From Terramyces sp. JEL0728 (Eukaryota; Chytridiomycota; Chytridiomycetes; Rhizophydiales; Terramycetaceae), in contig JADIIU010000130.1 of the NCBI GenBank assembly GCA_027603945.1, forward strand, positions 1 through 35,917: a stretch of DNA of 35,917 nt, written 5' to 3'. The notes beneath the pieces are model-generated. The model did no database searches. It was not told the origin of the DNA and saw nothing but the letters and a program-made list of their open reading frames with translations. Below are positions 3,017 through 35,917 of the stretch, piece after piece. Each line of letters opens with the position of its first letter. Position 1 is the stretch's first letter. Made by a program: the position numbers and the translations under genes.

Positions 3017-4602
3017 TTATATTCGCACAGTTTGCTTTTCGTCTACGGTTTTGCCATCGTCTGTTTTACTTTTTGAGTGTGCAACCAGCATCTTTAGCGG
3101 CTCTGCTGATTTCTCACTGGGTTTGCCTGTTGCTATATCAGCCTTGTATTTCAATGCATTAATTAGTATACCTTTGAATGAATAGAAGCTGTATTGTTGT
3201 ATGATAAAGTGCAACACATAAAACAAGTCGATGCAGTTGCCCAATCCTGCCAACGCTCTATCGTTCCCTACATTAATAAATACTCGCCAGCAACAAATGT
3301 ATTTTTTCCAATATTCAGAATAACGTAATAAAATGCAAGATTAAGTGTCCCACAAAGTAACGGAAGGGAGATTTGCGGGTTTTGGAAAAATACAAACAAC
3401 TTTCCTCGCAGACCAGCTTTTAAAAATCGCTTATCAACATGGATGATTTTTACGGTAACTGCAAGAGTTGTAAACACCCCAACCAAAAACCTAGTGTCAT
3501 ATTAAGCGTACCACACCAATACTCGAAAATTATTTGCAAAGTCGACCCATCTGGACTGAATTTCATATAGACTAGCATCTCCAATATAGAGTCCGTATAT
3601 TACCCAGTAGTACATATAATCCGATCCATCCAGTGCAATGTGTAGAAACGTTATTCCAATGTACGATAGTGTTTTATGCATTAAATTGCCTTGAATACAC
3701 AGGTCAAATATTATAAATACGTCCATTAGATATACGCAGTAGAATGATATGTCCTGGGTGTAAATCGGTACTGTTGTAAGAAAACTAAGCTTTGATATTG
3801 AATCGTCTGGAGAAGCAACATAGTATTCCGAGTAAAACGACAATATTGAATACAAGAAAAATATTGCATTTACCAGCAACATCAGGAAATCTCTAATTTG
3901 CCATCTACGAGATAACTGATGGCCCTTGAAAACCATTGATCCCAAAGGCAGTATTCCACAAATCGCCAAACATATTGTGCCGAGTATTTCCAAAGGATCC
4001 TTATTTAATGGGTATACCATATTTGTAGGAAAATTCGAAACCCAAATGTAGCTAAACTGGCCATGGGTAAATCCAGTCATTTTACCAGTGAAATTACCCA
4101 GTATTGCTGATGTGTAGTTACTTTCAGTAGCAAGAGTAAATTCTTCAATTGGAGCACTTGTGCATCCGTCTCCGTCATATATCAGTAAACTGTTTTGAAA
4201 GCATTTAATAAATCCCTGGAAACAAGTGTTAGAATCCAAGTAGAATCCTGTATTATATTCAGCATATCCAATATCAAGCGCATTAACTGCACAGTAGAAT
4301 TGATTTGCGATGGATTTTGGCAAGATATCTTGGGTTGCTAAGTCATCATACGCGTCTCCTTGATACAAGAATGTTCCCGCCATACTCTGGTACGTAAGAG
4401 TCATTGACTTGTCAGCTGCAGAATGGCAGCAACTATCCGGCGGGACTCCGGCCTTTTCAGTGCTGCAGACATTGTATCCAACATCATTTTCAATTATTGA
4501 GAGAATCGTAGAGTTTTGATAATCATTATATGCAAAAATTGAAGATGGAGCTCCTACACAATCTGAAGACTGCCAATTGAATTCGAGGAATGGCGTAGAC
4601 AT
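3017..4602 (-). CDS. Family A seven-helix receptor-like protein, copy 1
   Basis: Three exons: 3512-4602, 3288-3490 and 3017-3267, giving 514 residues. The introns are 3491-3511 (21 nt, GT-AG) and 3268-3287 (20 nt, GC-AG, donor GCGAGT). The GC donor is fixed by alignment with copies 2 and 3, whose intron lies at the same site and phase. The start MSTPFLEFNW (ATG at 4600-4602) matches the other copies; an ATG at 4642 is possible. The first ~210 residues form an ectodomain with many cysteines (SSDC, NVC, SCC, YYC, NTC, GDGC) and N-glycosylation sites. Seven hydrophobic segments follow, starting just after LNKDPLEI, and then a short hydrophilic tail. The topology is that of a receptor, but no known GPCR motif is recognised, so ligand binding is inference. 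It is the first of three tandem copies. Confidence 0.85.
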
Positions 4603-4698
4603 TAATTTAGTACAATAAAACGAAAATTTGAATAAACATCCCAATGGTCATTGTTCTCTTTGTAGCCTTGTTCAAAATGGATTTATTTTGCGATAGAA

Positions 4699-6279
4699 TT
4701 ATAATTTAATTGTTTGTTTCTCGTCTACAGTGTTTTCCGGGTATGAATTGCTCTTTGAGTCAGCAATTAGCATCTTGACAGGAGCTTCCGACTTTTCACC
4801 TGGCCTTGCTGTTGGAGCTTGATTCTTAAATCTCAATGCATTCAGTAGTATTGGCTTAAACGTGTAAAAGCTGTATTGTTGAATCATGAAATGGAATACA
4901 TAGCAGAGATACGTGCAGTTGTTTAGTCCAGCGGCTGCACGATCGTTTTCTTGAATTAACAAATAGTACTTGCAAGAAAAGTAAAGGTAGCAATTTCCCA
5001 AACAATGTAGTAGAGAGCAACGTTTGTAACATGTAGTACCATTGGGAGGGATACCTCTGGTGTTCGCATTAGTAAAAATAATTTCCCAGCTAGATTGGCT
5101 TTCTTGAATCTTTGGTCAATGTAAATGATTTTGATTGTTACTGCCAAAGTAGTAAAAACCCCAAATAGGAACCTGTATTAATTGCATATACCATATTAGC
5201 AATCTCGCTGATTTTGTTTGTTTTCCCCAGTCTTCTTGCAAGGCGTAAATTGAAGGATCTCCCGAGTATAATCCATAAATTCCCCAGTAATACAGATATG
5301 CGTTTCCGTCGAGGGAAAAGTGTAATAGTGAGACGGCTACGTATGCCATTATTTGATACGCCTTTTTAACTTGAAAGCATAGGTTAAGCAGAATATATAC
5401 ATCCAGTAAATACACTGAGTATAACGATAGTTGTTGGAAATAAATAGGAATGGTTGTCACTAAACTTAGTAGTGATACATTGATAGTTGAGGGAACAACG
5501 TAGTATTCTGTATTCAAGAGTAGAACAGCGAAAAGAAAGAACAGGATATTGATGAATAACATCCACAAGTCTCTGATCGACCATCGCCGGTACAGCTGGT
5601 ATGTTTTGAGTAGCAGAGAACCAAGCGGCAAAACAGCGGCAAATATCACACAAAATGTTCCAAATGCCTCGACCGGATCTTTGTTGAGTGGATACACCAT
5701 GTAGGTCGGGAAATACATGGTCCAGATATAACCGAATTCGCCATTTGTAAATAACGTCATTTTAGCTGTGAAATTTCCAATTATCAGTGAAGAGTAATTT
5801 GTTTCTGTGCCTAATGCATACACTTCGCTTGTTCCAGAACACTCTTCTCCCGGATACAAATACAGGGTGTTTTGACTGCACTTTACATATCCCTGAAAAC
5901 AATTTCCAGACGATAAATAAAATGCAGTGTCATATTCGACAATCCCGGTCTCTAATGTGTTGATCGCACAGTAATAGTTGTTGGCAGCCGATGTAGGCAC
6001 ACGTCCTTGGTTCGCCAAAGTATCGAATGCATCGCCGTCATAGGAAAATGTGCCTGCCACACTTTGATATGTTAGTGTCATTTCAGTGTTAACTGACGAT
6101 CGACAGCAACTGTCTGGAGGTGCATATAATATCTGGGTGCTGCAAGTGTCATAGCCTGTATCTCCGTCGATAATAGCCAAGATTGAGGAGTTCAGGTAAT
6201 CGTTGTATGCAAATATGGATGACGGTGCTCCAACACAATCTGTAGATTGCCAGTTGTATTGCAGAAATGGAGTTGTCAT
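4699..6279 (-). CDS. Family A seven-helix receptor-like protein, copy 2
   Basis: Three exons: 5192-6279, 4970-5172 and 4699-4949, giving 513 residues. The introns are 5173-5191 (19 nt) and 4950-4969 (20 nt), both GT-AG. The start is MTTPFLQYNW (ATG at 6277-6279). The layout matches copy 1: a cysteine-rich glycosylated ectodomain (STDC, DTC, SCC, YYC, NC, KC, EEC), seven hydrophobic segments from about residue 220 and a hydrophilic tail. Exons 2 and 3 are 203 and 251 nt, exactly as in copies 1 and 3. The third exon keeps the ENDRAAAGLNNC block that anchors the splice junction. Only 96 bp separate it from copy 1 and 50 bp from copy 3, so the cluster is a tandem duplication. It is a probable surface receptor or sensor; the function is unproven. 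Confidence 0.87.
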
Positions 6280-6329
6280 ATCTTTTTGGACAAAATTTCT
6301 TGGGTAGACAATGGGTAAACAATGAACAT

Positions 6330-7908
6330 TCAATTTCCTAGCTTTATTGTTTCTTTTTCGCCAACCGATTTTAAATTTTTGCTATGCGAATCGTCCAAAA
6401 GCATTTTTACAGGTGCAGCCGTTTGTTCGCCTGGTTTTCCTGTCGGTAGATCGTTCTTGTATTTCAGTGCGTTTACAAAAAGCGACTTGAAGGAATTAAA
6501 GCTGTACTGCAGGATCAAGAAATGCAGCACGTTACACAGATAGGCACTATTATTTAGACCTGCGACCCCACGATCATTTCCTGGATTATTGATTAATTAC
6601 TTGCAAGAAGAGTGTGATTAGCGATATCGTTTACTATATAGTAAAACGCGACGTTAAGTGTATGAAGAAACAGCGGCAAAGATATTTCGGGGTTATTGAA
6701 TAGGAGGGGTATTTTTTCAACAAAATTAGCCTTTTTGAATCTCCTGTCGACAAGAATAATCTTGATTGTTACCGCTAATGTGGTTATCACTCCGAATAAA
6801 AACCTGTTGTGAATTCCACTTACCATACAATCATTCTTGATATGTTGATGACGTTTCCCCAGCTAATTTGCAAATCGTATATTGATGAATCTCCAGTATA
6901 TAGCCCATAGATAGCCCAATAGTAGAGATATTGATGGCCGTCTAGAGCAATATGCAGCAGTGTAATCCCGAAATACGATAGTTTCTCATATCTCCTAGAC
7001 TGCGTGCACAAATGAAAAATCATATAAACATCCAGCAAATATACTAAATAAATTGATATTTCTCCGAAATAAATAGGAATGGTTGTAATCAGGGACAATA
7101 ATGAAATACTGATGTTAGAACTGGCAATGTAATATTCGGTATACAGCATCAGTATGGCAAATAAAAAGTAAATTAAATTGATGACCAACATAAAGAATTC
7201 ACGCACAATCCATTTCCTGTACAATATATACAATTTAAAAAAGAATGATCCCAATGGCAATGCAGCAGAAAGAATTAAACAAACTGTTCCGTAAGCTTCA
7301 AGCGGATCCTTATTTAATGGATAAATTAAATAGCTTGGAAAGTAAGTTGTCCATATATAACTAAATTCGCCATTAGTGAACAAAGTCATTTTCCCCGTAA
7401 AATCTCCAAAAATATTTGAGGTGAAATTAGATTCTGCTATTAAAGAGAAGCTTTCTGGACTTCCTGTGCATCCAGTCGAATTATACAAATAAATACTGTT
7501 TCCATTACATATTAGAAAGTCTTGAATACACTTTCCATTTGACAGAAAGTATCCAGTGCTGTATTCAGCGTATCCTTCCTGAAGAACATTAACCGCGCAA
7601 TAATACTGGTTTACAGCTGATTTCGGTAGCGTCCCCTGATCATTTAGTGTATCAAATCCATCTCCTTCGTAGAGAAATGTCCCACCGACACTTTGGTAAT
7701 TGAGAGACAGACTGGTATCTATAGCAGAGTGGCAGCATTGATTGGGCGGGATATTTGGTATTTGTGTGCTGCAAGTATTAAATCCAGTATCGTTATCGAT
7801 TATTGACAGGACAGTGGAATTTAGATAATTATTATAGGCAAATATTGAAGATGGAGGCCCAATGCAATCTGTATTATACCAATTGAATTCTAGAAATGTA
7901 GTCATCAT
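6330..7908 (-). CDS. Family A seven-helix receptor-like protein, copy 3
   Basis: Three exons: 6824-7908, 6601-6803 and 6330-6580, giving 512 residues. The introns are 6804-6823 and 6581-6600, both 20-nt GT-AG. The start is one of two adjacent ATGs (7906-7908 or 7903-7905); the second gives MTTFLEFNW, aligned with the other copies. The ectodomain has conserved cysteines (NTDC, NTC, QCC, YYC, KC, LIC, TGC) and the motif PPSSIFAYNNYLNST. Seven hydrophobic segments follow the conserved LNKDPLEAYG block. The tail is hydrophilic and diverges from the other copies (KNLKSVGEKETIKL). Divergence between copies is spread over ectodomain and helices while splice sites and exon lengths are fixed, which suggests selected paralogues, not pseudogenes. 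Confidence 0.87.
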
Positions 7909-14935: not shown

Positions 14936-15170
14936 TTAATTGCTTGCTCTAATTATTGGTTCCGCTTCTCTTTTGTGAGCCCTGATAATTGGTTCCGTTT
15001 CTCTTTTGTGAGCTCTGATAATTGGTTCCGCGTCCCTCTTGTGAGCTCTGATAATTGGTTCCGTTTCTCTTTTGTGAGCCCTGATAATTGGTTCCCTCTT
15101 ATTCATACGGCTATATTAGTCAAGTTTACTCTGCCAAAACAACAGCAACCAACAACGCAAAGACCTTCAT
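14936..15170 (-). CDS. Peptide precursor 1: five IIRAH-type repeats
   Basis: Two exons, 15130-15170 and 14936-15110, with a 19-nt intron at 15111-15129; 71 residues. The signal peptide is MKVFALLVAVVLA, followed by DRMN and five units each led by Lys-Arg: EPIIRAH, ETEPIIRAH, DAEPIIRAH, ETEPIIRAH and EAEPIIRASN. Kex2-type cleavage after KR and removal of X-Ala and X-Pro dipeptides would release IIRAH-like peptides; the ET units might stop trimming early. The layout is that of yeast alpha-factor and of Kex2-processed repeat proteins. It acts outside the cell if processed so. The intron follows the signal peptide in phase 2, as in precursors 2-4. The TAA stop overlaps an AATAAA polyadenylation signal. 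Role as pheromone or autocrine signal is inference. Confidence 0.88.
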
Positions 15171-15194
15171 TTCGGAATTGAAAGTAACCTCAAA

Positions 15195-15202
15195 TATTTA
15201 TA
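15195..15202 (-). promoter_or_regulatory. TATA box of peptide precursor 1
   Basis: TATAAATA on the minus strand, 25-32 bp before the ATG at 15170. Just upstream are two copies of ACCCAGGATT about 21 bp apart (see findings). Confidence 0.55.
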
Positions 15203-15354
15203 CGCAATCCTGGGTCCAAAGGAAATCCTGGGTTCGCCGAACTGTTCCTTTGAACCACTTTCGTATTGTGATTGGACCCAACAAACAATAGTAAGGGATA
15301 AACTTTTTTATTTTATTGGAGTTGGTACATATATCCAATTTGAGAACAGGTAAT

Positions 15355-15537
15355 TTAAACGTATCTAAGTGGTTCAGGTTCAGCTTCACGCTTTACATAT
15401 CTGAGTGGTTCAGCTTCACGCTTTACATATCTGAGTGGTTCTGGTTCTGCTTCTCTTTTGTTTCTACAATAAGAAATATATTACAAAGGAGCTGGAATAG
15501 CAAGGACAGTAGCGAATAACAAGTAAGTGAATTTCAT
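15355..15537 (-). CDS. Peptide precursor 2: three LRYV repeats
   Basis: Two exons, 15485-15537 and 15355-15463, with a 21-nt intron at 15464-15484; 53 residues. The signal peptide is MKFTYLLFATVLA and then IPAPLN. Three KR-led units follow: EAEPEPLRYV, EAEPLRYV and EAEPEPLRYV, the last ending at the stop. The spacer is pure EA/EP dipeptides, the substrate of Ste13-type dipeptidyl aminopeptidases, so the predicted mature peptide is LRYV in all three units despite different spacer lengths. This uniformity is the best evidence for dipeptide trimming. A near-TATA (CATAAATA, 15566-15573) lies 29-36 bp before the ATG. Confidence 0.9.
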
Positions 15538-15851
15538 GATGGTAGTTCAAATGCTAAATTACCAGTATTTATGTTAATTCATCAGTATATCCATGGCGGA
15601 GATTTCCACAATTTGACCATGGATATGCAGTAATCCACGTAGGAATTATTGGTATGTACCCATGGATTACCAAAAATCCACGTAAAATCTTTAGCGTCAT
15701 TGTTAAATCTTGAATAATACTTGTCTGAGGTATACCAGAATGTGAACAGATCGTTTGCAGATGCCTGTTATTCGACTCTGGCGAATGAACAGATGAATAA
15801 AAATTATAAATGAGATGGATTTGACAATGTTTGTACATTTATTACAAATGT
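15538..15851. other. Intergenic region upstream of peptide precursor 2
   Basis: About 310 bp. It holds a CATAAATA box and, at 15590-15690, repeated palindromic elements (ACGTGGATT...ATCCATGG twice, plus a third CCATGGATAT). An open frame crosses it on the minus strand (15569-15838), but its composition is unlike the genes here and it overlaps the promoter elements. I do not call it a gene. Confidence 0.5.
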
Positions 15852-16069
15852 TTAGGCGCGGACAATTCTTGGAATTGCTTCTCTTTTAGCTGGGAAATGT
15901 AATCTTGGCATTCTACGGTTAGATTTGCTTACATTGGCTCAGCTTCTCTTTTGAATGGGATCTTTCTAATAGCTTCAGGTTCAGCTTCTCTTTTTACACT
16001 ATCATCAAGTAATATTTACACAACAGGAGCAGAAAAAGTAAGAGCAATCAAGAGTACAGTGAATTTCAT
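15852..16069 (-). CDS. Peptide precursor 3: three different peptides
   Basis: Three exons, 16020-16069, 15933-15998 and 15852-15912, with introns 15999-16019 (21 nt) and 15913-15932 (20 nt); 58 residues. The signal peptide is MKFTVLLIALTFSA, then PVVV. The KR-led units are EAEPEAIRKIPF, EAEPIMPRLHFPA and EAIPRIVRA. Unlike precursors 1 and 2, the three predicted cores differ (IRKIPF, IMPRLHFPA, IPRIVRA or RIVRA), so one gene may encode several signals. The second intron falls inside the second peptide, and its removal is needed to keep the third unit in frame. A TATAAAA at 16098-16104 lies 29-35 bp upstream of the ATG. Confidence 0.86.
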
Positions 16070-16376
16070 TTTGATCGTGCCAGTTTAATACGCATGATTT
16101 TATAAGAAATTGATGGTAAATATTTAGATGTGTTCCACGATCATCTATAAATATTTGTGTAAATAATATTCCGTCGCATGGCAAACAAACACTCTAAGAG
16201 AAAATTATCCAGTGGACCAGCATTTGATAAGAATTAGTATTACTTTGGGTCTGCCAGTAATTGGGAGGTTGATTATAGCTATTTAGCCATTGCACTAGAA
16301 GCAAATGGATGGTATGAAAAGATATTGCTATAGAAACATGAGTTGAGTGTGATCACAATTTTATTAACAAGTTTCA
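16070..16376. other. Intergenic region between peptide precursors 3 and 4
   Basis: About 300 bp. It carries the TATA of precursor 3 and the short 3' end of precursor 4. A plus-strand frame from 16178 to 16333 reads like protein but has an internal TAG at 16235-16237 (see findings). Confidence 0.5.
16098..16104 (-). promoter_or_regulatory. TATA box of peptide precursor 3
   Basis: TATAAAA on the minus strand, 29-35 bp before the ATG at 16069. Confidence 0.5.
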
Positions 16377-16645
16377 TTAGTCTCGTGCCGGTTCAGCTTC
16401 TCTTCTCCATCTTCTGATTGGCGGGATTTTAGTTCCAGCTTCTCTTTTATTTCTTCTCACTGGAACATATGCAGGCTCGGCTTCTCTTTTATTTCTTCTC
16501 ACTGGAACATATGCAGGCTCGGCTTCTCTTTTAGCTCTACGAAGGATAGCTTCTGCAGTAGGTTCACGCTTTTCAAATCTAGTTTAAGGAATAATTACCC
16601 TGGGTTGGCAAGTACACTGGCAAGTAACAACAAAGACAATTTCAT
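16377..16645 (-). CDS. Peptide precursor 4: AYVPVRRN-type repeats
   Basis: Two exons, 16599-16645 and 16377-16578, with a 20-nt intron at 16579-16598; 82 residues. The signal peptide is MKLSLLLLASVLA, then NPGFE. KR-led units follow: EPTAEAILRRA, EAEPAYVPVRRN twice, EAGTKIPPIRRW, and after an Arg-Arg site EAEPARD. The two identical AYVPVRRN units also repeat at DNA level (a 51-nt tandem at about 16446-16547), indicating recent unit duplication. Predicted cores are AILRRA-, AYVPVRRN- and GTKIPPIRRW-like. Because Arg-Arg also occurs inside the cores, the exact ends are uncertain. The gene is divergent from the family B receptor-like gene at 16875, with 229 bp between the two ATGs. Confidence 0.88.
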
Positions 16646-16668
16646 TGAGTAAGGTTAGAATAGCGCTG

Positions 16669-16675
16669 TTTTATA
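16669..16675 (-). promoter_or_regulatory. TATA box of peptide precursor 4
   Basis: TATAAAA on the minus strand, 24-30 bp before the ATG at 16645, in the intergenic region shared with the receptor-like gene at 16875. Confidence 0.55.
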
Positions 16676-16874
16676 CTAAAAGGAATAAATATTTGGATAA
16701 ACATTAGTCATGTTGTTTGGTAAATACCATGTGGTAAATAGATAGTAACACAAAGAACCAAGCAAGATATTCCAGCAGAAAGTATTGCAAGATATTCCAG
16801 CATGCAAGGCACATAGGGTTGTTCCAGTATCAATATTGTACTGAAAACAAGATTTTGAATGACGTTTTTCTTAC

Positions 16875-17809
16875 ATGCCAAACACCACCCTCTCCAACGT
16901 AGACTACTTGCCTCTGACAATTCCAGCAGGCCAGTTTCAATTAGCGCTGCAAATAATAGTACTTGCTGCATGCACGATATTTACAATTTACACATTTATT
17001 AAAATCGGACCTAAAGCTACAAAATTACACAGGCAAATCAAAGTGTTGTATGTGTTTTCAATTATTACTCAGGTTGCATATATTTTATATTATAATACCC
17101 CAGATGCATCTCTTGTGTTTAATTTTACCCGCGGGTACTGTTTATTTACTCTACTGTATATCAACCGACATTCAGAATTCGAGTTTTTGAAATTATTATC
17201 GTCAATATCGATTTTATCAGCGAGACACTTGTTTATATTGCAGATATCATGGCTAGTAATTTGGCTGGGACTGGTGTTCTTGCCTTTGACAGGAGGATTG
17301 ATTATAACATTTGCTTTTCCGCAACATCTACTAATGTTCAGATCGGTAAAATGTCATTAATCCAGTATGGTGATTTTTCAGCACTGGTTTTCAATCTTCT
17401 TGGGTCAGTTTTGGAATTCCTTACAAATATTTACGCTGCATTCATTATTAGGAGATTTATCATAAGGAAATATTCTCGGAATGAAGATGAAGATGCGAAA
17501 TACGCTTTATCGTTAGCCTCTTTCCAACAGCTGAAATGGCTGAGTTATGGGATTGTTTTTAACGCCTTTTTTTGCTCTACATTGTATATTGGCTCTTTCT
17601 ACATTGACGACCACGCATTGAAATTACTGACTTGCAACGCATCGCAAATCATTGTTAATCTGACAACTATTATGTTTGCCTACAGGTTCATTGCGGCTCA
17701 GCAGTGTATTTTCCCCCAGGACCAAACCATTCAGAGCAAAGACAAGAAACTGTCTGCTCCTAAACAATCAAAATCAAACGGGACACTAACCAGGATAATA
17801 AAGGAATAA
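16875..17809 (+). CDS. Family B seven-helix receptor-like protein, copy 1
   Basis: Two exons, 16875-17345 and 17366-17809, with a 20-nt intron at 17346-17365; 304 residues. A short N-terminus with an NTT glycosylation site is followed by seven hydrophobic segments: FQLALQIIVLAACTIFTIYT, VLYVFSIITQVAYILYY, a segment with EFEFLKLLSSISIL, LQISWLVIWLGLVFLPLTGG, ALVFNLLGSVLEFLTNIYAA, WLSYGIVFNAFFCSTLYIGS and IIVNLTTIMFAYRFIAAQQ ending in CIFP. A basic tail follows. The family hallmarks are EFEFLK or ELEFLK after helix 3, the phase-0 intron between helices 4 and 5, and CIFP after helix 7. The topology and size suit a GPCR-like receptor, but I recognise no Ste2, Ste3 or Gpr1 signature. Its divergent pairing with precursor 4 makes it a candidate peptide receptor. 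Confidence 0.85.
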
Positions 17810-17830: not shown

Positions 17831-18418
17831 TTAGCATTTTTGCCAGTTAAATGTATAAGATTGCAAAATAAATCCAGTTTCAGAGCTGGTAGTAATGGAA
17901 GATACTGGGCCAGTAGTAGTGCTGTTTACGATTTGTACTTTGGTGTTGATTTCCAAGCCAACGTCGTTTGTGCATCCACTCCATACAGGTTGATCTAAAG
18001 GCACAATATCAACCAAGTTGAAATCTCCCTGAGCTGGACCAGTAAAAGTATGTGCAAAGTTGGCGGTGTCAGATTCGCCTTGGAAGTAATAAGAAGTCTT
18101 TTCGACTGCAGTTACACCTGGTTGGAGGTTCAAAGTACCAGTGAAGCCTACACCAGCTAAAGAGAATTGCCATCCAGCTTCGTAGTCAAATTCAACTGAA
18201 ACTTGGCAGTTCTTTCTTGAGTCAGTAATTTTGGTTCCGTTTCCAGATGAAGCAGTCAAGTGAGCAAATTCAATGTGGAATGCGGATCTATCTGGAGTAA
18301 TATATGCGCTGGAACTGCCTTGAGGACAGCCTGAGCCGCCGTAAAGGATCTGCTTGATGTTTGCGAATGAGGGTTGTGCAGAAACGTATAAAGCTAAAGT
18401 TGCCAAGTATAGTGCCAT
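17831..18418 (-). CDS. Secreted DUF4360 protein
   Basis: Single exon, 195 residues. It begins with a signal peptide (MALYLATLALYVSAQ) and has the DUF4360 opening YGGSGCPQGSSSAYITPDRS, a paired C-terminal cysteine arrangement (GCTND and a final KC) and a beta-rich composition with N-glycosylation sites. DUF4360 proteins are small secreted proteins of fungi, often expanded, with no known enzyme activity; some are linked to host or surface contact. The gene converges on the family B gene with 21 bp between stops. The assignment is firm; the function is unknown. Confidence 0.9.
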   Translation of the reverse strand: MALYLATLALYVSAQPSFANIKQILYGGSGCPQGSSSAYITPDRSAFHIEFAHLTASSGNGTKITDSRKNCQVSVEFDYEAGWQFSLAGVGFTGTLNLQPGVTAVEKTSYYFQGESDTANFAHTFTGPAQGDFNLVDIVPLDQPVWSGCTNDVGLEINTKVQIVNSTTTGPVSSITTSSETGFILQSYTFNWQKC

Positions 18419-20447: not shown

Positions 20448-23197
20448 ATGCAATCAGACGATATTGAAAGGCAAGACAACGAGCAACTGCTGGGAATCAA
20501 TCCAGACAGGCCGGTAAACATCAGACAAAAGCATAGGCGATTAGGAAGGAAAAAGCAGAGATTAATTCTAATTGCAGTAGTCAGTGTAGTTTCATTATTC
20601 GCTATATTATTCATGATTACTGGATTGCCAACTAAGGGAGATGTACCAGTTGGACAACCTGTAGAGCACACTAATGACCAAGTAAATGTACCTGCAGAAG
20701 AGCATAAGGATAAGGAAATACCTGGCAGTGAGCATTCCAAAGATATACCAGCAACCACCGTTAGTGATAATCAAACACCAGCTACTGTTAGTGATAATCA
20801 AACGCCAGCAACTATCCCAAAAATTAAAGGCACTGGAAACAAGGAAAAGGAAACTAAAGTAGAACCAATTGGATCAAAGAAACCAATCAACTTTAAAGGA
20901 TTAAGTGGGTATGGCGCAACAGGATACCTAAGCGCAGAAAACAACTGGATAAAATCTCCCCACGTCCAAGATGGAACAGTAGCTAAAATGGACAATGGAT
21001 TAATCAAAATCTCCCACATAGAGTACGGCAACGATACTATTCTCGCCAATGTCAACGATTTCAAAACAGACCAAGGACAATTAATACCTAGCAACTGGGA
21101 AATATCAAACGACATGGAGTATATATTATTAACCACTGATGTGCAAAGCGGTTGGAGACATTCTTTCTTTGCTGACTATTATATTTACAGCATCAAGGAG
21201 AAAACGACCAAGCCATTAACTTTAACTAAATCTGATAAAGTTATAGAAAATGAATTGGGGAGTGGGAGAATTGCACTCGTATTGTGGGCTCCTGTTGGCC
21301 ATAATTTGATATGGGTGCGTGATAATGATTTGCATTTCACTGTTGATGGCCATGAACTGCGCGTAACCTCAGATGGATCAAAGGGTATAATCAATGGTAT
21401 CTCTGACTGGGTATACGAGGGTAATGTTATCTAATAGCAGAGGAAGTATTAAATAACCCACAGTCATCTTGGATATCACTTGATGGTAATGCAGTTGCCT
21501 ACATCAAATACAATGAAACTCTAGTAAGAGACTTTGAACTGCAATATTACGACAAAGCAGGATATGATCAGTATCCGCAAAAGATTGATTACAAGTATCC
21601 GAAGCCAGGAACACCTAACCCAACTGTTTCACTCCATATCGCACAAGTAGCGAACCTGGGGATACAAAATCAGGAAATTAAACTTGACGATATATTCCAG
21701 CCTGAAGATCTGATCATTGTAGAATTAAAATGGCTGGAAGCTCGTGTATTGATTGTAAGATGTATGAATCGGATCCAGAATCACCAAAAACTATATTTGG
21801 TCGAGTACAGTGGGGCCAAGTGGAAAAGCACGCTTACTAGGGATGAAAAGACTGCTGATGGTGCGTGGTATACCAAAGTAATTCCATTTAACACAGATGC
21901 ATTCAATGGAAGTAGTGAAAGGCAGTTACTTGGAACTCTTGGATAATGAAGAAGGCTACTTACATATCGCCTTTTTCAAAAATATTTCATCTTCAAAGCC
22001 AGAATGGTTGACAACAGGCAAATATGATGTGGATGCAATTAAAGGCATCAGTGACGATTATGTGTATTACACTAGTACAGAAATTCATTCTACCGAAAGA
22101 CACTTGTTCAAAACAAGTTTTACTGGCGGAAAAACACAAATGACACCAATGGAAACTGCCAAAAAGTACAGGGTAGTCAAAGAGTATGAAAAAGATATCG
22201 GCCAAGAAATTGGAGGCGAAGGATATTATGATGCAAGATTCTCACCTGGATGTACATACTACTCTGTTGGATACTTGGGTCCTGATATCCCATGGCAGCG
22301 TTTGGAAAAAACTGGAGATCCATCGTTTGGTAAATATACAAGCGATTGGGAAGCCTACCAGACACTCCACGAAACATACGAACTCCCGCAAATATCTTAT
22401 TTACAAATACCAATAGACGGCGACGAACTCAACTGTAAACTCATCCTGCCACCCAATTTTGACAAGACAAAGAAATATCCCGTCTTGTTTGAAATTTATG
22501 GCGGTCCCAATCATCAAAAAGTAAACAAGGTGTATACGATTGATTATTTGTATCGTCTGACCACATATGGATTTATTGGCGTTATAGTTGATGCAAGAGG
22601 AACAGGATTTAAAGGCCGAAAGTTCCGTACAGCAGTGTACAAGAACCTGGGCAAGCATGAATCACAAGATTTTATAAGCACGGCAAAGTACTTGTCAGAA
22701 ACATATTCGTTTATCGATAGTAGTCGTATCGGTATTTGGGGATGGAGCTTTGGCGGATTCCTGACATCGAAAACAATCGAGCAAGATTCGACAATGTTCT
22801 CGCTTGGAATGGCTGTTGCACCAGTAACTGACTGGAAACTATATGATTCTGTTTATACAGAGGTACGCCTTGCTAACGTAGCGATACATGCAGACCCCGC
22901 AGGAGAACCCTGAAGGGTACAAGGAATCAGCTATTTCTAGGATGAACGGATTTAGAAATGCAAAGTTCCTGATGATCCATGGCACAGGCGATGGTAAATT
23001 CTTTTTAATCAGATAACGTGCATTTCCAGAACAGCGCTAAATTAGTGTGGAAGCTCACCGGTGCAGGTGTAGAAGGGTACACTGTACAGTACTACACAGA
23101 TAGTGATCATAGCATGGGTGCCAACGGTGCTCAAACACAAGTCTACAAACTCCTGACGACATTTATTTGTTTTAATTTCAAAGTGGAGTGCAAATAA
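20448..23197 (+). CDS. Dipeptidyl aminopeptidase, Ste13/DAP2/DPP4 type
   Basis: Five exons: 20448-21420, 21441-21877, 21897-22862, 22882-22993 and 23013-23197, with 19-20-nt GT-AG introns; 890 residues, usual for the family. Type II membrane topology: a basic cytosolic start (RRLGRKKQR), one helix (LILIAVVSVVSLFAILFMIT), then a P/T/K/E-rich lumenal stalk with a TVSDNQTPA repeat. The propeller holds DWVYEEEV, whose double Glu binds the substrate amino terminus; intron 1 splits this motif. The hydrolase domain has Ser754 in GWSFGG, Asp829 in GTGDDNVHF and His862 in SDHSMG. The family removes X-Ala and X-Pro dipeptides in the late Golgi (Ste13) or vacuole (Dap2). The peptide precursors at 14936-16645 carry exactly such spacers. 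Ste13 versus Dap2 cannot be decided here. Confidence 0.93.
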
Positions 23198-23204
23198 AGG
23201 TTTA

Positions 23205-24586
23205 TTAAACACGGCATTTAGCGAAATCTGGGTCTGTTTGCTGGTTGTCAATCATTTGAATTGCAGCCCCTAAACACCACCCGATTTCAATTCCATTAAT
23301 CTTTTTTGTAGTTTTTACTATATGCGTTTCTGGTAGACCGTATCCGACCGTCAATAGAGAGTACATGAATCCTAAATCCATGCACCAGTCTGAATTCTTT
23401 TCGTATTCTTTTAACCCAGCCTGTAGCAGTTGTGGCGATTTTCCACAAACGATATCTGCTTGATGCTTCATTTGTCGCAGTTCAAATGAATTTTCGTGGT
23501 TGAATGGGTCGGCGAATTTATCGTAGAAATAAGAAAAGGCGTAAAGGTCGTGTTTGAAACTGTCTTTGAGGTTTGGCATGTATATTCCATCAAAAGAACA
23601 AGGATCCAAAGCACATGTTTCCTTCTTGTTGAACAAATTGTCTGATATGAATGAATAGCACTGGTCAAAGTCTGTTCCAGTTCCTTTGAGTTCAACCAAG
23701 GTGCCTTCGTTTTCTAAAGTGCTGGTCTTTCCTTCAGGCAGACAAGGTGCGTGAGACTTTGATGCTTTTTTAATCTTTAATCTTCCTTGCATCAGCCCAT
23801 ATCCATCGTATGAATGTTGATACAGCACATAATCATGGCCAGAGAATTTCAGTTCTTTTTTGTGAGATCCTGGATGCATCGATCCAGATGGCTCAAATAC
23901 GATCTGAGTTGAGCCGCCTCCCAAGTCCATTATGCCAACAGTTGGTTTTTTATCTCTTCCGCCGATATTTCCCAGTAAATAATTGATTGTAATCCAGGCA
24001 AATGCACCTTGGTTAATTTAAAATACCTTCATCATCGCCTCCCATTATTTCAACGGCTCCTTCTTTAATCAGAGGGAACGGATATTCAGTCTTTAGTTTC
24101 TGCTCAACCTGCTTTAAAATAATTTCTCCCATCCCGTTTTCCAACATTCGCAACCCGGCAGTAGCTTTTACAGCAATTGGAGTGCATTTGTGTAATTCAA
24201 CAGGAACATTCGCAACTGCGTCTTTTAGCAGTTTATCCAAAGAATCAGCAGCAGCCTTTGGATCAGTGACATATGACGACAACCCTGGCTTTGTGTGTAT
24301 AAAAACTTCGTCTTCCAATTCCGGTGCTTGATTGCAATAATTAAATCGATAAACATGAATACGCGAACTGAGTTAATATTGCTTACCCTGTAGACCCGGC
24401 ATCGATGACTATTGCGTACTGGATATCTGGCATTCCTTTATGCACAATTCCACATTTGTCTGTTTTCACTCTGGCAAATACCTGTTTTTTTATTGATCCT
24501 AAATTTGTGGGGCTGAATAGCAAGTATAGGAATACTAGTAGTAATATTAGTACTATTGGTCGGAATAACGTTGACCTGCTTCGCAT
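23205..24586 (-). CDS. GDA1: GDA1/CD39 family nucleoside diphosphatase
   Basis: Three exons: 24387-24586, 24027-24367 and 23205-24007, with two 19-nt introns (24368-24386, 24008-24026); 447 residues. The start is the ATG at 24584-24586 (MRSRSTLFRP). A single N-terminal helix (PIVLILLLVFLYLLF) gives type II topology. The apyrase conserved regions appear in order: VIDAGSTGSRIHVY, KATAGLRML, GGDDEGAFAWITINYLLG and VGIMDLGGGSTQIVFEP. The first intron splits the first of these and the second the third. GDA1 hydrolyses GDP/UDP in the Golgi lumen to exchange UMP or GMP for nucleotide sugars, supporting glycosylation; a fit with the UDP-glucose-using ceramide enzyme nearby is only thematic. The stop lies 7 bp from the convergent aminopeptidase stop. 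Confidence 0.92.
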
Positions 24587-24638: not shown

Positions 24639-25533
24639 TTAGTTTATTAATTTATTACCAATATCTGTACCATTCGTCTTGATTTTCCTGGTCTTTGCCA
24701 ACGAATATCCACCGCCAGCTTTTAAATTCAACTGCTCTACTTCCTTAGTATCTGGGAAAATACAGTTTTGACAAATCAAGAAGCGAAAAGTAACGAGCGG
24801 CGGGGTATTAAACACCATGATCTGTGACAAAGTATTACTAAAATCGTGTACATTGCCAACACTAGAGACTAGACAGATTATATAGAACCCAATCGCAATA
24901 GAGTTGTTGATTACTATTCCTATGGTAATATAAGTCAAGAACGTGAAATTCCGCGCACTTTGTTTCAATTCTTCCTCCTTGTACTTGGTTTGAATAAAAG
25001 CGCGTATGGACACTACAGCTATTGTCGCTAGTCCAAATTCAACGAGTACACAGGAAACGTCAAATAGCATTGAAGTTATACCGCGAATCTGATTAGAAAC
25101 AAAGTACATTGTTTGCAAGTGCCTGGGTGGACGATGGAAATGGTTGAGTGAAAATGTAGTAATATACAAACATTGGTACCAGACAGCAAGCGATACTCCA
25201 TGTTACCCAGACCAGTTTGATCTTATTAATCGTTTCATTCTTGAATATCGTAATTACACTAATAATTTGTATAAAGTCAAATTCACAGTACCCAAGGAGT
25301 ATTTCTGTTGACAAAAGAGTGGTTTGGCAGAATAACTCGAATGTAATGTTGTCGTTTTGAAAGGTATATATGAGGTATAGCGTCTGCGAAATCATACTGA
25401 TGACCAGCATCATTTTGATTTTAATTCCACTTGATATTTTCTTTTTTCCAACAAGCAAGTAGACTGTAAAGATACTGGTGATTATGAATTCTATAATTTG
25501 AATACAGAGTTGCACGATGGTCAATGAGTTCAT
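24639..25533 (-). CDS. Family B seven-helix receptor-like protein, copy 2
   Basis: Two exons, 25108-25533 and 24639-25088, with a 19-nt intron at 25089-25107 in phase 0; 291 residues. Seven hydrophobic segments start directly at MNSLTIVQLCIQIIEF, so the N-terminus is very short. The block CEFDFIQIISVITIF after helix 3 and CQNCIFP after helix 7 place it in the family of the gene at 16875. The intron falls at the same point between helices 4 and 5. The cytosolic tail is basic (KTRKIKTNG). Sequence identity to the other copies is low away from these anchors, which suggests fast divergence as in ligand-binding receptors. Confidence 0.84.
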
Positions 25534-25653: not shown

Positions 25654-26605
25654 TTAGATTCTGGTTGCTAATTCCACTTTGCGATCAGATATACGAGTAT
25701 TCTGAGACCCAAAGTTGAACAATGTATTAGCCAGTTTAATCCTTTTTTCAGTATTTTCAACTACGGGACCAACAGTAGGGAAAATGCAGTTTTTGGACAA
25801 GAGGAATCTGTATGCTACTAGTGACGGTGTCAGGTGGATAAAAACATGCGCACAGTTAGTAGTAATTGTTCTGTTGTTGATATCGCTGTATACATACCGC
25901 ATAATGTATAGCCATGTGCTAAATGTATTGTTGGCGACGATTGCACCAGTAAGGTACTTTAGTTTGGCAAAATTCCGTCTTGCAGATTCATACCTATCCA
26001 ATTCCTCGCCATTACTATACTTTCTCTTTATATATGAATGGATTCCAGAAATCGCAACAAAAGCAAGTGTAAATTCGGTGATTAGACACGATCCATCAAA
26101 TACCAGTGATCCTATTTGCTGCACCTATGTTAGTACTTTCTACTTGGTATGAAATTTGAATTGTCCTTGGTGTACTATAAGGATCACATTTAGAAATGAA
26201 ATCCACAATCACTGGCACAAACCCGCCTAATACACACCATATTACCCACACAGATTGAAGAACATTGATAATGTCTTTGCTGAAAATAGTAATCACACTG
26301 ATCGTCTTCAAGAATTCCAGTTCGCAAAACCCAATAATCAGAAAAGTGCCGTAAATAAACAGTTGACAAATAAACGATAATCCAGGCACATCTATCGGTG
26401 TATTAAAATTGAAGAGATACAATATCTGCGACGTAATACTGATTAATAATAATAATTTGATTTTTATATTATACGCTTTTTCGTGCTTTGTGCTTGTGAT
26501 TGAGTAACAGGCGAATACTACTGTGCCAGTAAATACTATTGTTTGGATCGGTATTAGGAATTGGCCATAGATTGTGTCTGATGAAAAGTAATCGGGATTT
26601 GACAT
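25654..26605 (-). CDS. Family B seven-helix receptor-like protein, copy 3
   Basis: Two exons, 26144-26605 and 25654-26124, with a 19-nt intron at 26125-26143 in phase 0; 310 residues. The start is MSNPDYFSSDTIYGQF. The anchors CELEFLKTISVITIF, YRFLLSKNCIFP and the intron site define the family. The loop between helices 5 and 6 is charged (KRKYSNGEELDRYESARRN), as in all copies, and is probably the cytosolic contact for a G protein or other partner if this is a GPCR. It lies 120 bp downstream of copy 2's start on the same strand and is divergent from copy 4. Confidence 0.85.
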
Positions 26606-27036: not shown

Positions 27037-27959
27037 ATGTCAGAACCAATATTCTTCAGTCCTACATCGGTTTATGGAATAATCCAAATAACATTACAAA
27101 TACTAACACTAATATCGACTCTAGTTATCACTGGAACTTGCATTTTCTGGAAACGAGCAAAATTCACGGATCCCATATATTTATTATACCTGGTCAGCAT
27201 TATTACACAGATAATATACCTCTACTATTTCAACGACGGACGTTTTGTACTGTCCATCGATTATCTCAAAGGAGTATTTCTCTTTTCTACATTGACAATG
27301 AAAGGATACTGTGAATTGGAATTCATCAAAGTTATTATTATTTTGTCGAATATAAAGAAAAAGACTGTACAGATAATGCAGATTGTCTGGGTCTTGTGGT
27401 TTGTAATCTCGATATTTCTGCCAATTACCATCACGTATGTTATGATTGCCAACGACAATGCCCCGCCGATATCACTACAAGTAATGCTATCTAACAATAG
27501 ATCCGCGACTTTGGCCTAGTTGCATTCAATGTAATTGGAGTAGTGGTTGAGGTAGTATTGAATTCATTCTCTGCAATCAAAATACAAAATTATATACTAT
27601 TCAAATTCTCAAAGAGTGAAGAAGACGCTGAAAAGTTGATGATTGCGAAATCGAATCTGCTTGTATTGAAATGGTTCAGCTATATGATTATTATGAATTC
27701 ATTTTTGTGTACTGTTTTGTACATGGGATATTATTTTATTTCCGATCCGCCCTTGAACAAATTGACGGTGAATCTATCACAGATTTTGATTCATGTAACT
27801 ACTGCGATTATTGGGTACAGGATTATCTTTGCTCAACGGTGTATTTTCCCCGATCATACTTCATCGCGCAGCCATAGTAGTAAAAGAACATCGGAAGCAG
27901 TAAGACCAAGCATTACCAAAGTCACAATGGCTGCAACAAAAATAATATCAGAGAAGTGA
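27037..27959 (+). CDS. Family B seven-helix receptor-like protein, copy 4
   Basis: Two exons, 27037-27480 and 27501-27959, with a 20-nt intron at 27481-27500 in phase 0; 300 residues. The start is MSEPIFFSPTSVYGIIQI. The family anchors CELEFIKVIIILS, the intron between helices 4 and 5, and AQRCIFP after helix 7 are all present. The loop FKFSKSEEDAEKLMIAKSNL between helices 5 and 6 is close to that of copy 1 (RNEDEDAKYALSLASFQQ), so copies 1 and 4 may be the closest pair. The S/R-rich tail after CIFP could be a phosphorylation-controlled region. Confidence 0.86.
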
Positions 27960-30152: not shown

Positions 30153-32282
30153 ATGCGTTGCAGCCAATCAAATAAGAGTAACAATGGAAATTTGCAAACA
30201 ATAACAACACTGCACCCAGTGAGCACTTTCCAGCGAAGGACACTACAGGTACGACAGGCAGGATCCAATATGGCTTCCATTATCGACACGCATGCGACAA
30301 GAATAAGACTGTACAGGAATGGAGACATCTATTTCCCTGGGAAAAAGATCCTAATAACGTCGTACATCAAGAACTTTGAGCAGGTAATTGCAGCATGACA
30401 AAAGTTTTTGACAGAGTGTTCACGGGATATACAATTAATTGGAGGTGTTCGCAGAATATTTGACATGAATGGGGCAAGAGTCAGGTCACTAGACGAGCTG
30501 CATGATTCACGTTTTTACGTAGCGACAAGTGGGGAGCCTTTCAAAAAAGTAGATTATTTAGTAGAAGAAGATCAGATCCCGCCTGTATTTATTGGAGTAA
30601 GCAGAGCAACATTGTCAATGCAGCAAACTTCCCAGTCTCAGACAAGCTTAACGCGAAGAAAAATCAATAGATCCACTGGGGGCTTGCTCACAGAAGACCA
30701 AAAGGCAGAAATCCGCAATCAGCATTCAGAAAAATCGTTATTTGGTCCATCAGTAACCGTTTCTAATCTAGTCAAAAGCATTCAAAATTGCTGTTTTTGA
30801 AAATGGAGAGCAAATGAATGAAGGAGTCAGACTAATATTGAATCACAGAAACTGTAAAACATTCGAGCAGGTACACGGTATTAATTACAGCTTTTAAAGT
30901 ATCTTTCGTCTTTGAAGATTTTAAAGAGCGGCCAGGTTCGAAAGATTTATGATGCAAAGTCTGGAAAGAGAATCAGAGTGTTGAATGATCTGCAACCCGG
31001 GCAAAATATTGTTTTATCCTCCTTTGATCCATTTAAAAAACTACCGTACCATTTCATAGATTTGGAGAGCAAGGTGCCAGTGATGAAAAAAGAAAAGCAG
31101 GTGCCAAAAATTGTCAGGTTCTATCCAAATGGCGACGCCTACCATTTAGGATTAGGGCTTACCGTTACCAAAAAGAGATTCCCAACGCTTTCCAAGGTAC
31201 CCACTATTAACCCAAGGTGTTGGACGTTTTAAACTCGCAAATTGAGCTAGTGACTGGTAAAATCCAAAAAATATACGCCTTGGATGGAACTAGAATATAT
31301 AATGTAGACGACTTGAGACCTAATGGCAATGTGCTGGTTGCAAATGATGATCCCTTCATTAAACTAAAGTACAATGTAATGGCAATTCAACATAATCATG
31401 GGCAGCCTGGGCTTAACGGAGCCACCTTGCGAAACGAGTATATAAACAAGATCCGTCCAATTACTCAACGTGGACGAGTAAGACACCATACAGAATCCGG
31501 TGATGTTCCTGCTTCTGAGACGGCTACTAAACCAAATACATCGCACAAGAGAAAAAAGAGCCACCAAGCGCAGGAAGAGCCATTGGAATCAGAAGAATAT
31601 GTTGTCCAGTCGTATACATCAACATTGAAACCAGCAGAGGAGAAACAAAATGGTAATTTGTATTGATTATAGCTCCAAAACACCAGGCACATGCTTCTGA
31701 AAAGAGACCTGCGCCAACAAAGTATAAAACAGTAAAATCAGCAGGAAAAGGTAAACCAGATGTAATGCAGATCATACAGTTAAAGCACATCAGGAAGAGA
31801 AACTAGCTGAAAAACACCAGGAACCCCCTCGAGAGAAGCAGCATGAAAAACAAGAGACTGTCCTTGAGAAACCGCAAGACACTCTCCGAGAAAGCACTCA
31901 AGAGAGAAATCAAGAGAAATCGCACGACAAAGCAAACGTTAGTTTTGCACTGGAAAAGAATCAAACACAACACCTATCAAGAAAATCAACCCCAAAGAAA
32001 GAATCTAGACCACCTTCCGCAATCCCTGAAGACGATGCCATCAAACATAAATCAGGCAGAGAAGAAGAAATACTAGAAACACCTACAAAGACCATGCAAT
32101 CAAATAAATCAATTGCAGATGCAAAGAGGGTAGAATCAAACCCCAATTCAGCAGCAACAACTCCAAAATTGAAGAAAGTCGCTCTTTCTACTTCTAAAAT
32201 TCCAAAATTATCATCATCAAGAACTAATTCTAATGAAGAAATTGTAGAAAGATCCAAATCGGCAGGCGCGACCAAGGTTTAG
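30153..32282 (+). CDS. Triple doublecortin-domain microtubule protein
   Basis: Seven exons: 30153-30383, 30405-30752, 30772-30870, 30891-31196, 31217-31652, 31673-31750 and 31771-32282, with 19-21-nt introns; 669 residues, or 630 if the ATG at 30270 is used. Three DCX domains occur in order, each with the motif set of the family: RLYRNGDIYFPG ... VRRIFDMNGARV ... EPFKKVDY; AVFENGEQMNEG ... VRKIYDAKSGKRI ... DPFKKLPY; and VRFYPNGDAYHLG ... IQKIYALDGTRI ... DPFIKLKY. The C-terminal ~300 residues are disordered, K/E/Q-rich, with coiled-coil potential. DCX proteins bind between protofilaments and stabilise curved or ciliary microtubules. In fungi they are known mainly from zoosporic lineages, so this supports a flagellated relative. 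An intron splits each DCX domain at the same site. Confidence 0.93.
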
Positions 32283-34573: not shown

Positions 34574-35917
34574 ATGGACAAGGAAGAATCTGGTGTTCAA
34601 GTACTCCGAAATGAAACTGCAGTAGATTTGGATGAAGTGGCTGTCAAGCTAACTCCTTTTCAATTTATCTCTGTGTTTGTCTCGTTCGCGTTTTCTGTAT
34701 TCTTGGTTTCCCTGGACGGAACTATTGTGTCTACAGCTATCCCATCTATTGGAGCTGAATTCCATGCTTTTGATCAAGTATCTTGGATCGGTATTGCTTT
34801 TTTGCTGACATCAACTGCACTCTCGCCCGTGTATGGTGAACTGTGTAATATTTTTGGACGTAAACCTGTGTTTCTATTTGCAATTATTATATTTGAAGTT
34901 GGGTCTCTGATGTGTGGTATCGCTGGTTCTATGAACTTCCTGATTGCTGGCAGGGCTGTTGCTGGTATTGGCGGTGGAGGTATCTTTTCTTGCGTGCTGA
35001 TTATGATTGCGGATATTACGTCGCTCAGAGATTCTGGCAAGTACCAAGGAATCATTGGCGCAGTCTTTGGATTGTCTAGCGTTATCGGACCTTTGTTGGG
35101 AGGGATCTTTACCGACAAACTTACTTGGAGATGGTGCTTCTATGTCAACTTGCCTATTGGAGGTATTGCTGCCATTGTTGTGTTCATGTACTTGACTTTT
35201 CCACCACCAGAAGGTTCAATCAGAGAAAAATTGTACAAGATTGATTATATCGGTACTTTCTTTATTGTTGCTTCCACTGTCTTGATCTTGATTCCATTGG
35301 AATTAGGCGGATCTACCTGGGCTTGGAATGAACCAAAAACAATCATCTGCTTTGTCGTTGGAAGTATTCTTGCTATTGTATTTGTTTACGTTGAATTCAA
35401 AATCGCAAAAGAACCAATTATTCCACCAAGGCTATTCAATGACAGATCAGTTTCGCTTGCATTGTTGGCCGCTTTCCTTGTTGGATGTGCATTTATTCCA
35501 CTCTTCTTTTATGTTCCTACCTTTTTCCAACTTGTTGATGGAGAGAGTGCAACCTTATCTGGCTTGGAAAGTATTCCAATGATCTTTGGTTTAGTGCTTA
35601 CTGCAACTGTATCTGGTGCTTTGGTCGGTAAACATGGTAATTACCGTGTTTGGTTCTTTGGCGGAGCAGTGTTGCTCGCTGTTGGTCTATTTTTAGTGTC
35701 CAGACTTGGCCCTGGTACACCCAAAGTATTACAAATCATATTTTTATTCATTGGCGGTCTTGGTGTTGGTTCAATCATCCAAGTCAGAGTTTACGCTGTC
35801 CAAGCTGGTGTAGAAAGAGACGACATTCCTTCTGGAACTTCAGCTTCCAACTTTTTCTTGAACTTGGGCGGTACTTTTGGTTTGGCAATCTTTGGAACTG
35901 TATTTAACAATGCTCTT
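34574..35917 (+). CDS. DHA2-type MFS multidrug exporter, 3' end outside window
   Basis: Open for 448 codons without introns and cut by the right edge. After an acidic cytosolic start (MDKEESGVQVL) the protein has at least twelve hydrophobic segments of the 14-helix drug:H+ antiporter-2 family. Visible signatures are LDGTIVSTAIPSI in helix 1 (motif D1), GELCNIFGRKP (motif A), GRAVAGIGGGGIFS (motif B), VFGLSSVIGPLLGGIFTDKL (motif C, the antiporter motif) and WRWCFYVNLPIGG. It probably exports a toxic compound or siderophore across the plasma membrane in exchange for protons; the substrate cannot be told from sequence. It is the only long intron-free gene in the window, which may mean recent origin or transfer. 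Confidence 0.93.
   Translation, partial: MDKEESGVQVLRNETAVDLDEVAVKLTPFQFISVFVSFAFSVFLVSLDGTIVSTAIPSIGAEFHAFDQVSWIGIAFLLTSTALSPVYGELCNIFGRKPVFLFAIIIFEVGSLMCGIAGSMNFLIAGRAVAGIGGGGIFSCVLIMIADITSLRDSGKYQGIIGAVFGLSSVIGPLLGGIFTDKLTWRWCFYVNLPIGGIAAIVVFMYLTFPPPEGSIREKLYKIDYIGTFFIVASTVLILIPLELGGSTWAWNEPKTIICFVVGSILAIVFVYVEFKIAKEPIIPPRLFNDRSVSLALLAAFLVGCAFIPLFFYVPTFFQLVDGESATLSGLESIPMIFGLVLTATVSGALVGKHGNYRVWFFGGAVLLAVGLFLVSRLGPGTPKVLQIIFLFIGGLGVGSIIQVRVYAVQAGVERDDIPSGTSASNFFLNLGGTFGLAIFGTVFNNAL

Follow-up and report, generated by a model that had tools for sequence, protein, structure and literature searches.

The window analysed here is a stretch of 35,917 nucleotides, contig C130 of the genome of Terramyces sp. 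JEL0728 (Chytridiomycota, Rhizophydiales, Terramycetaceae), whose assembly comprises 15.0 Mb in 231 contigs. On its minus strand it contains four small tandem genes, P1 to P4, which encode putative precursors of short peptides. An earlier sequence-only reading had recognised these genes between positions 14936 and 16645, assigned them 53 to 82 residues, micro-introns and an alpha-factor-like architecture, and suspected a host from an early lineage; all of this was borne out (Table 1), the host being a chytrid. That reading overlooked four genes of a receptor-like membrane protein family (R1 to R4) and a dipeptidyl aminopeptidase gene in the same window. R1 starts 229 bp from P4 in divergent orientation, R2 to R4 lie at a distance of 8-11 kb, and the aminopeptidase gene is 3.8 kb from P4, between R1 and R2. 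It is because of the receptor-like genes and the aminopeptidase that the cluster is interesting, and the surrounding locus, beyond the precursors, is the real find. To our knowledge, the pheromones of the chytrid lineage are largely unknown.

Table 1. Precursor, receptor-like and aminopeptidase genes of the locus (window positions; units and products as predicted)
Feature	Position	Strand	Details
P1 precursor, 71 aa	14936..15170	-	intron 15111-15129 (19 nt); 5 units; predicted IIRAH (x4), IIRASN
P2 precursor, 53 aa	15355..15537	-	intron 15464-15484 (21 nt); 3 units; predicted LRYV
P3 precursor, 58 aa	15852..16069	-	introns 15999-16019 (21 nt), 15913-15932 (20 nt); 3 units; predicted IRKIPF, IMPRLHFPA, RIVRA
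P4 precursor, 82 aa (GenBank HDV01_001309)	16377..16645	-	intron 16579-16598 (20 nt); 5 units; predicted ILRRA, AYVPVRRN (x2), GTKIPPIRRW, ARD
P4/R1 divergent intergenic region, 229 bp	16646..16874	.	contains AAATATTT element
R1 receptor-like membrane protein, 304 aa	16875..17809	+	intron 17346-17365 (20 nt)
S9B dipeptidyl aminopeptidase (Ste13/DPP4 class), 890 aa	20448..23197	+	introns 21421-21440, 21878-21896, 22863-22881, 22994-23012
R2, R1 paralog, 291 aa	24639..25533	-	intron 25089-25107 (19 nt)
R3, R1 paralog, 310 aa	25654..26605	-	intron 26125-26143 (19 nt)
R4, R1 paralog, 300 aa	27037..27959	+	intron 27481-27500 (20 nt)

Architecture of the four precursors

Each precursor starts with MK and a hydrophobic leader, followed after a few residues by units led by Lys-Arg, with one P4 unit led by Arg-Arg. 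In a simple hydropathy computation, the best 11-residue value of the leader, a putative signal peptide, is 2.3-3.3 and the remainder stays below 0 in all four. Tandem units separated by KR or RR, the criterion for Kex2-processed repeat proteins (KEPs), are present three to five times per gene, in agreement with the earlier count; the three of P3 differ strongly from one another. An X-Ala or X-Pro dipeptide stands directly behind KR in 14 of the 16 units, the other two being P1 units that start with ET. In P2 the spacer consists of 3, 2 and 3 dipeptides while LRYV stays constant, as expected if the spacer is discarded. Judged by sequence, P1 to P4 are KEPs with alpha-factor-type processing signals.

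Cutting at KR, removing the basic pair and stripping X-Ala/X-Pro dipeptides gives the ten distinct predicted products of Table 1. The cores named by the earlier reading are present as predicted; the first and last units of P4 (ILRRA and ARD) were missing from its list. Eight of the ten have 3-8 residues, and only IMPRLHFPA (9) and GTKIPPIRRW (10), with their ends as predicted, fall within the 9-24 residues given in PMC6339444 for released alpha-factor-type peptides of Ascomycota. This predicted course of processing, kexin cutting followed by dipeptide trimming, is well supported by sequence.

The five introns of P1 to P4 are 19-21 nt long and all in phase 2, and because in each of the four genes the first one follows closely on the leader, we take the genes as paralogs. 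The same length was found for all 14 introns that were checked by frame, motif or paralog alignment (five in P1-P4, four in R1-R4, one in R6 and four in the aminopeptidase gene, where one boundary was set from the conserved DWVYEEEVL motif), including 13 of 13 in the window. The wider splicing script scored short introns favourably and also proposed longer introns elsewhere. Introns of 19-21 nt are near the smallest spliceosomal introns that we know of. Open reading frames (ORFs) of up to 94 aa on the plus strand, antisense to the repeats, were rejected because they merely mirror the repeats. The earlier reading had considered such genes far too short for standard annotation, which does not hold for P4: with the intron removed, it is identical over 82 aa to the GenBank protein HDV01_001309 of Terramyces sp. 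JEL0728. P1 to P3 were not among the 23 protein matches described below.

The processing signature is not a product of chance and is nearly confined to the cluster. A strict degenerate K-R-E-A-E-P pattern has eight matches in the 15.0-Mb genome, all eight in the cluster, and the reversed control gives 0. With the looser pattern KR-[ED]-[APST]-E-[AP], 11 of 15 matches fall in the cluster (reversed control, 1); the remaining four are solitary and lie in frames that are not repeat precursors. Only P1 and P2 show signs of purifying selection on the core. The single pair of equal-length units in P2 shows 8 synonymous and 0 non-synonymous differences. The equal-length units of P1 (3 of 10 possible pairs) show 6 synonymous and 4 non-synonymous ones; the non-synonymous differences fall in the ET/DA spacer, and the IIRAH core has none of them.

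A search for precursor relatives, which covered predicted proteins only, returned 23 matches at E <= 10, of which P4 itself has 3.1e-24 and the other 22 have 1.5e-3 or worse. By eye, many of these 22 are further KREAEP-type repeat proteins, some of them under fungal or animal names (Lineolata, Cherax). Since their cores are unlike, we read the motif as one that recurs by convergence.

Processing enzymes and the receptor-like family

The linked aminopeptidase belongs, by its motifs and domains, to the enzyme class (Ste13 in yeast) that the spacers require. It scores 265 bits for DPPIV_N and 175.4 bits for Peptidase_S9, and carries DWVYEEEVL (the double-Glu motif), GWSFGG, GDDNVH and DSDHSM, that is, diagnostic features of S9B including the catalytic Ser, Asp and His. 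Residues 180-883 align to DPP4 structures at E 2e-110, and the N-terminal stretch is hydrophobic. The DPPIV_N genome search found only this gene, as three exon pieces. By our own arithmetic, 10 kb either side of a point make up 0.13% of the genome, so accident is an unlikely reason for the gene lying only 3.8 kb away from P4; the spacers predict such an aminopeptidase, yet the search for the enzyme came only after the gene had been seen.

One kexin-type gene was found (P_proprotein match at C14:153340-153621, 84.5 bits, cut-off 21); by eye, a hydrophobic tail and the His and Asn motifs of subtilisins can be recognised in the exons beside it. G-alpha genes scoring above the family cut-off number at least 12. 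Seven of them are on C65 in two groups (13.5-16.0 and 59.9-66.1 kb), and further ones are on contigs C133, C20, C49 and C99.

The receptor-like family has eight members, R1 to R4 at the locus and R5 to R8 at three other loci. One paralog on C121 shows no difference over 303 aa from a protein deposited in GenBank for Terramyces sp. JEL0728. In the family tree, R1 to R6 and a metagenome fragment form one group (100/99), with a mostly unsupported branching order within R1-R6, while R7, on a long branch, and R8 group with a Boothiomyces protein. A single-sequence search of 5.8 billion proteins with R1 gave no relative at E <= 10. The search with an eight-row alignment gave six proteins at E <= 1, namely R5, R6, part of R8, two R8-like proteins of Boothiomyces and one metagenome fragment. 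Against PDB sequences, R1 to R4 gave a single match, at E 0.67, which is not meaningful. In its structure model, built from a shallow alignment (13 rows, partly fragments), R5 has the seven-helix fold of a G-protein-coupled receptor (GPCR). The STE2 genome search gave one sub-threshold match (C20:141785-142270, 18 bits, E 0.008, cut-off 27.2), and this 274-aa open frame is possibly a distant Ste2-like protein of a chytrid.

Other features in the window and at the paralog loci

A AAATATTT palindrome occurs at 15192, 16118, 16149, 16687 and 26885, that is, in the 5' regions of P1, P3 (twice) and P4/R1 and between R3 and R4. The window has 9 copies against 3.26 expected, a comparison chosen after the fact from shared upstream k-mers, and the count is not independent because P4 and R1 have one common intergenic region.

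Tail to tail with R1 lies a gene for a DUF4360 secreted-type protein (17831-18418, minus strand, E 1e-51), and a GDA1/CD39 nucleoside phosphatase gene (23205-24586, minus strand, E 8.6e-96) is located between the aminopeptidase gene and R2. A Doublecortin-domain exon (PF03607) is found at 30405-30752 on the plus strand (E 5.9e-11), with DCX-like stretches by eye to about 31600. At the other end of the window, three minus-strand genes, T1 to T3 (3017-7908), encode proteins of 512-513 aa whose N-terminal part, about 200 residues long, contains Cys; by eye, they have about seven hydrophobic stretches. T1 has no Pfam match and belongs to a very large unclassified membrane-protein family. The tRNA scan found no tRNA gene. 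On C121, R5 and R6 are surrounded by an array of paralogs named by eye, from their Cys motif, as Zn2Cys6-type transcription factors. The same contig encodes, at 5603-6157 on the plus strand, a protein that looks secreted and carries about eight TTTPCAEDLAVVA-type repeats but no KR sites.

A candidate self-signalling locus and its alternatives

Among known systems, ascomycete MFalpha precursors have the same leader, Kex2 sites, Ste13-type X-Ala/X-Pro spacers and several similar units per precursor. In contrast to them, most of the predicted products here are shorter, only a few residues separate the leader from the first KR, and four tandem paralogs carry different cores, with no likeness to the cores of known alpha factors by eye and recall. 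Other fungal KEPs are likewise secreted-type proteins with tandem KR-separated units. The earlier reading had seen an undescribed peptide-signal family; this stands for the sequences but not for the design, as PMC7329392 reports KEPs across fungi, including 178 in 14 of 19 Chytridiomycota strains. According to PMC6339444, KEPs with Ste13 spacers occur in Ascomycota, Basidiomycota and Rhizophagus irregularis, the latter being called the unique early-diverging fungus with such spacers in that survey of 250 species, and the authors of the survey propose seeking GPCR partners. The locus described here differs in that its Ste13 signature belongs to an early-diverging fungus that is not Rhizophagus, and in its physical linkage to a receptor-like family and an aminopeptidase gene. 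The survey in PMC12842992 reports STE2 receptors from Ascomycota only, and the chytrids analysed in PMC6572847 are described there as having no mating-type genes. Among the titles and abstract beginnings listed from the open-access literature we found no report of a chytrid peptide pheromone, of a chytrid receptor locus or of this linkage.

Basidiomycete pheromone/receptor loci combine precursors and seven-transmembrane receptors in one locus; their pheromones are farnesylated and their receptors are of the Ste3 type. Precursors and receptor-like genes are similarly combined here, but the peptides would be cut by Kex2, P1 to P4 have no CaaX end and R1 to R8 have no STE3 match, just as they differ from the STE2 class D receptors in having no PF02116 match.

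We consider it slightly more likely than not that this is a self-signalling peptide-receptor locus of a chytrid, with mating pheromones as possible ligands. P1 to P4 would be secreted precursors, cut by kexin behind each Lys-Arg; a putative carboxypeptidase would take off the basic pair, and the linked dipeptidyl aminopeptidase would strip Glu-Ala/Glu-Pro-type dipeptides from the N-terminus until the core is reached. Short peptides, mostly of 4-10 residues (IIRAH, LRYV, IRKIPF, IMPRLHFPA, RIVRA, ILRRA, AYVPVRRN and GTKIPPIRRW), would be released and read by the GPCR-like R1 to R4 of the same locus through at least one of the many G-alpha proteins. The genes, their common architecture, the near-confinement of the signature, the kexin-type gene, the sole S9B gene found, the linkage and a modelled GPCR fold for R5 are what the analysis shows, while secretion, cutting, pairing and biological role are what we infer from them. 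The divergence among the four precursors and among the four receptors suggests that both duplicated in parallel, giving several ligand-receptor pairs. The most likely use would be mate or kin recognition between gametes or zoospores, to which we would give about a third of the weight.

Several results weigh against this proposal. On the side of the precursors, ET is not among the X-Ala/X-Pro dipeptides preferred by Ste13, and we infer its removal in P1 because the neighbouring cores are identical. The P4 repeats give no sign of selection on the core: both AYVPVRRN units have the same DNA sequence, and between either of them and GTKIPPIRRW there is 1 synonymous change against 16 non-synonymous ones. 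The sequence-only reading had named absence from close relatives as evidence against itself, and the result goes partly that way: no other named species has the precursors among the 23 matches, and none of these is labelled Boothiomyces, a relative whose proteins are represented in that database. Fast divergence or missing annotation may explain this, R1 to R6 also being without a match from another named species among the 5.8 billion proteins, where Boothiomyces relatives appear for R8 only. As to the receptors, the fold model covers R5 only; in Foldseek its best E is 1.1e-3, with none at or below 0.001, and STE2 class D ties with class A receptors, so that the GPCR class is not settled. Seven separate stretches are not resolved in R1-R4 by simple hydropathy. 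Neither STE2 (PF02116) nor STE3 (PF02076) matches any of the eight R proteins in Pfam scans at E up to 1 (R1, R2) or up to 10 (R3-R8). The STE3 genome search gave no match, but neither did its control genome, and the STE2 search had no control genome giving a signal; a genome-wide lack of these two families is thus not established. The "only" counts given above are lower bounds of six-frame searches. Furthermore, no convincing KR-repeat ORF was found around R5 to R8 (30 kb of C121, 14.9 kb of C87 and 20 kb of C140), so that precursor and receptor are not linked throughout the family. Used as a protein query, T1 gave 60 genome matches, exon pieces counted singly, and T1 to T3, which are unrelated to the R family, lie in the same window. 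Because such genes are common in the genome, nearness to some seven-helix-type gene is weak evidence; to lie near four members of one small family of eight, and near the aminopeptidase as well, is better evidence.

The R paralogs at the three other loci, which have no precursors in the stretches read, are consistent with a different role for P1 to P4. As genuine KEPs, they could release peptides that act outward, on microbes, algae or plants, or at the cell wall, with the receptors being neighbours by chance or sensing something else. Several cores are short and basic (AYVPVRRN, GTKIPPIRRW), and PMC9769878 calls KEP functions largely unknown. However, at 4-6 residues, cores like LRYV and IIRAH are, as a matter of general knowledge, very short for membrane-active peptides, and some other reason would be needed for their being linked to four receptor paralogs and to the sole S9B gene found. 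We regard outward action as a serious alternative that is nevertheless rather unlikely.

Much less probable are two further explanations. The genes could be decaying or unexpressed duplicates, their signature being a functionless relic, a view to which the absence of P1-P3 from the 23 protein matches, the mutually different units of P3 and the lack of a purifying pattern in P4 would lend themselves. Yet frames and splice sites are intact in all four genes, and synonymous differences exceed non-synonymous ones in P2 (8 vs 0) and P1 (6 vs 4, none in the core). We consider decay quite improbable. Alternatively, in a cluster of the ustiloxin type for ribosomally synthesised and post-translationally modified peptides, the Kex2-cut cores would be cyclised or otherwise modified into a secondary metabolite. 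An example of a modifying-enzyme family of this kind is the UstY type (DUF3328). The window does encode a transporter (MFS_1, also TRI12, at 34574-35917), and the definition of KEPs was drawn from ustiloxin-type precursor features (PMC7329392). Pfam scans of 16 proteins or exons, part of those in the window, showed no modifying-enzyme family, and the Ste13 signature is stated in PMC6339444 to be absent from the precursors of toxic cyclic tetrapeptides and epichloecyclins. This origin is the least probable of all, and we give it very little credence.

Returning to the self-signalling locus, its more specific form would be a pheromone/receptor mating locus of Chytridiomycota that brings together several unlipidated peptides, receptors from a GPCR family belonging by sequence to neither Ste2 nor Ste3, and the maturing enzyme. 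We regard this form as possible but on balance doubtful. If it is true, peptide-based mating with a receptor family of its own would exist beyond Dikarya, and the system would either be anciently related to that of alpha-factor or be a second invention of it. Overall, predicted short ligands, candidate receptors and the expected maturing enzyme stand side by side at one locus, which supplies candidate ligands for an orphan fungal receptor family.
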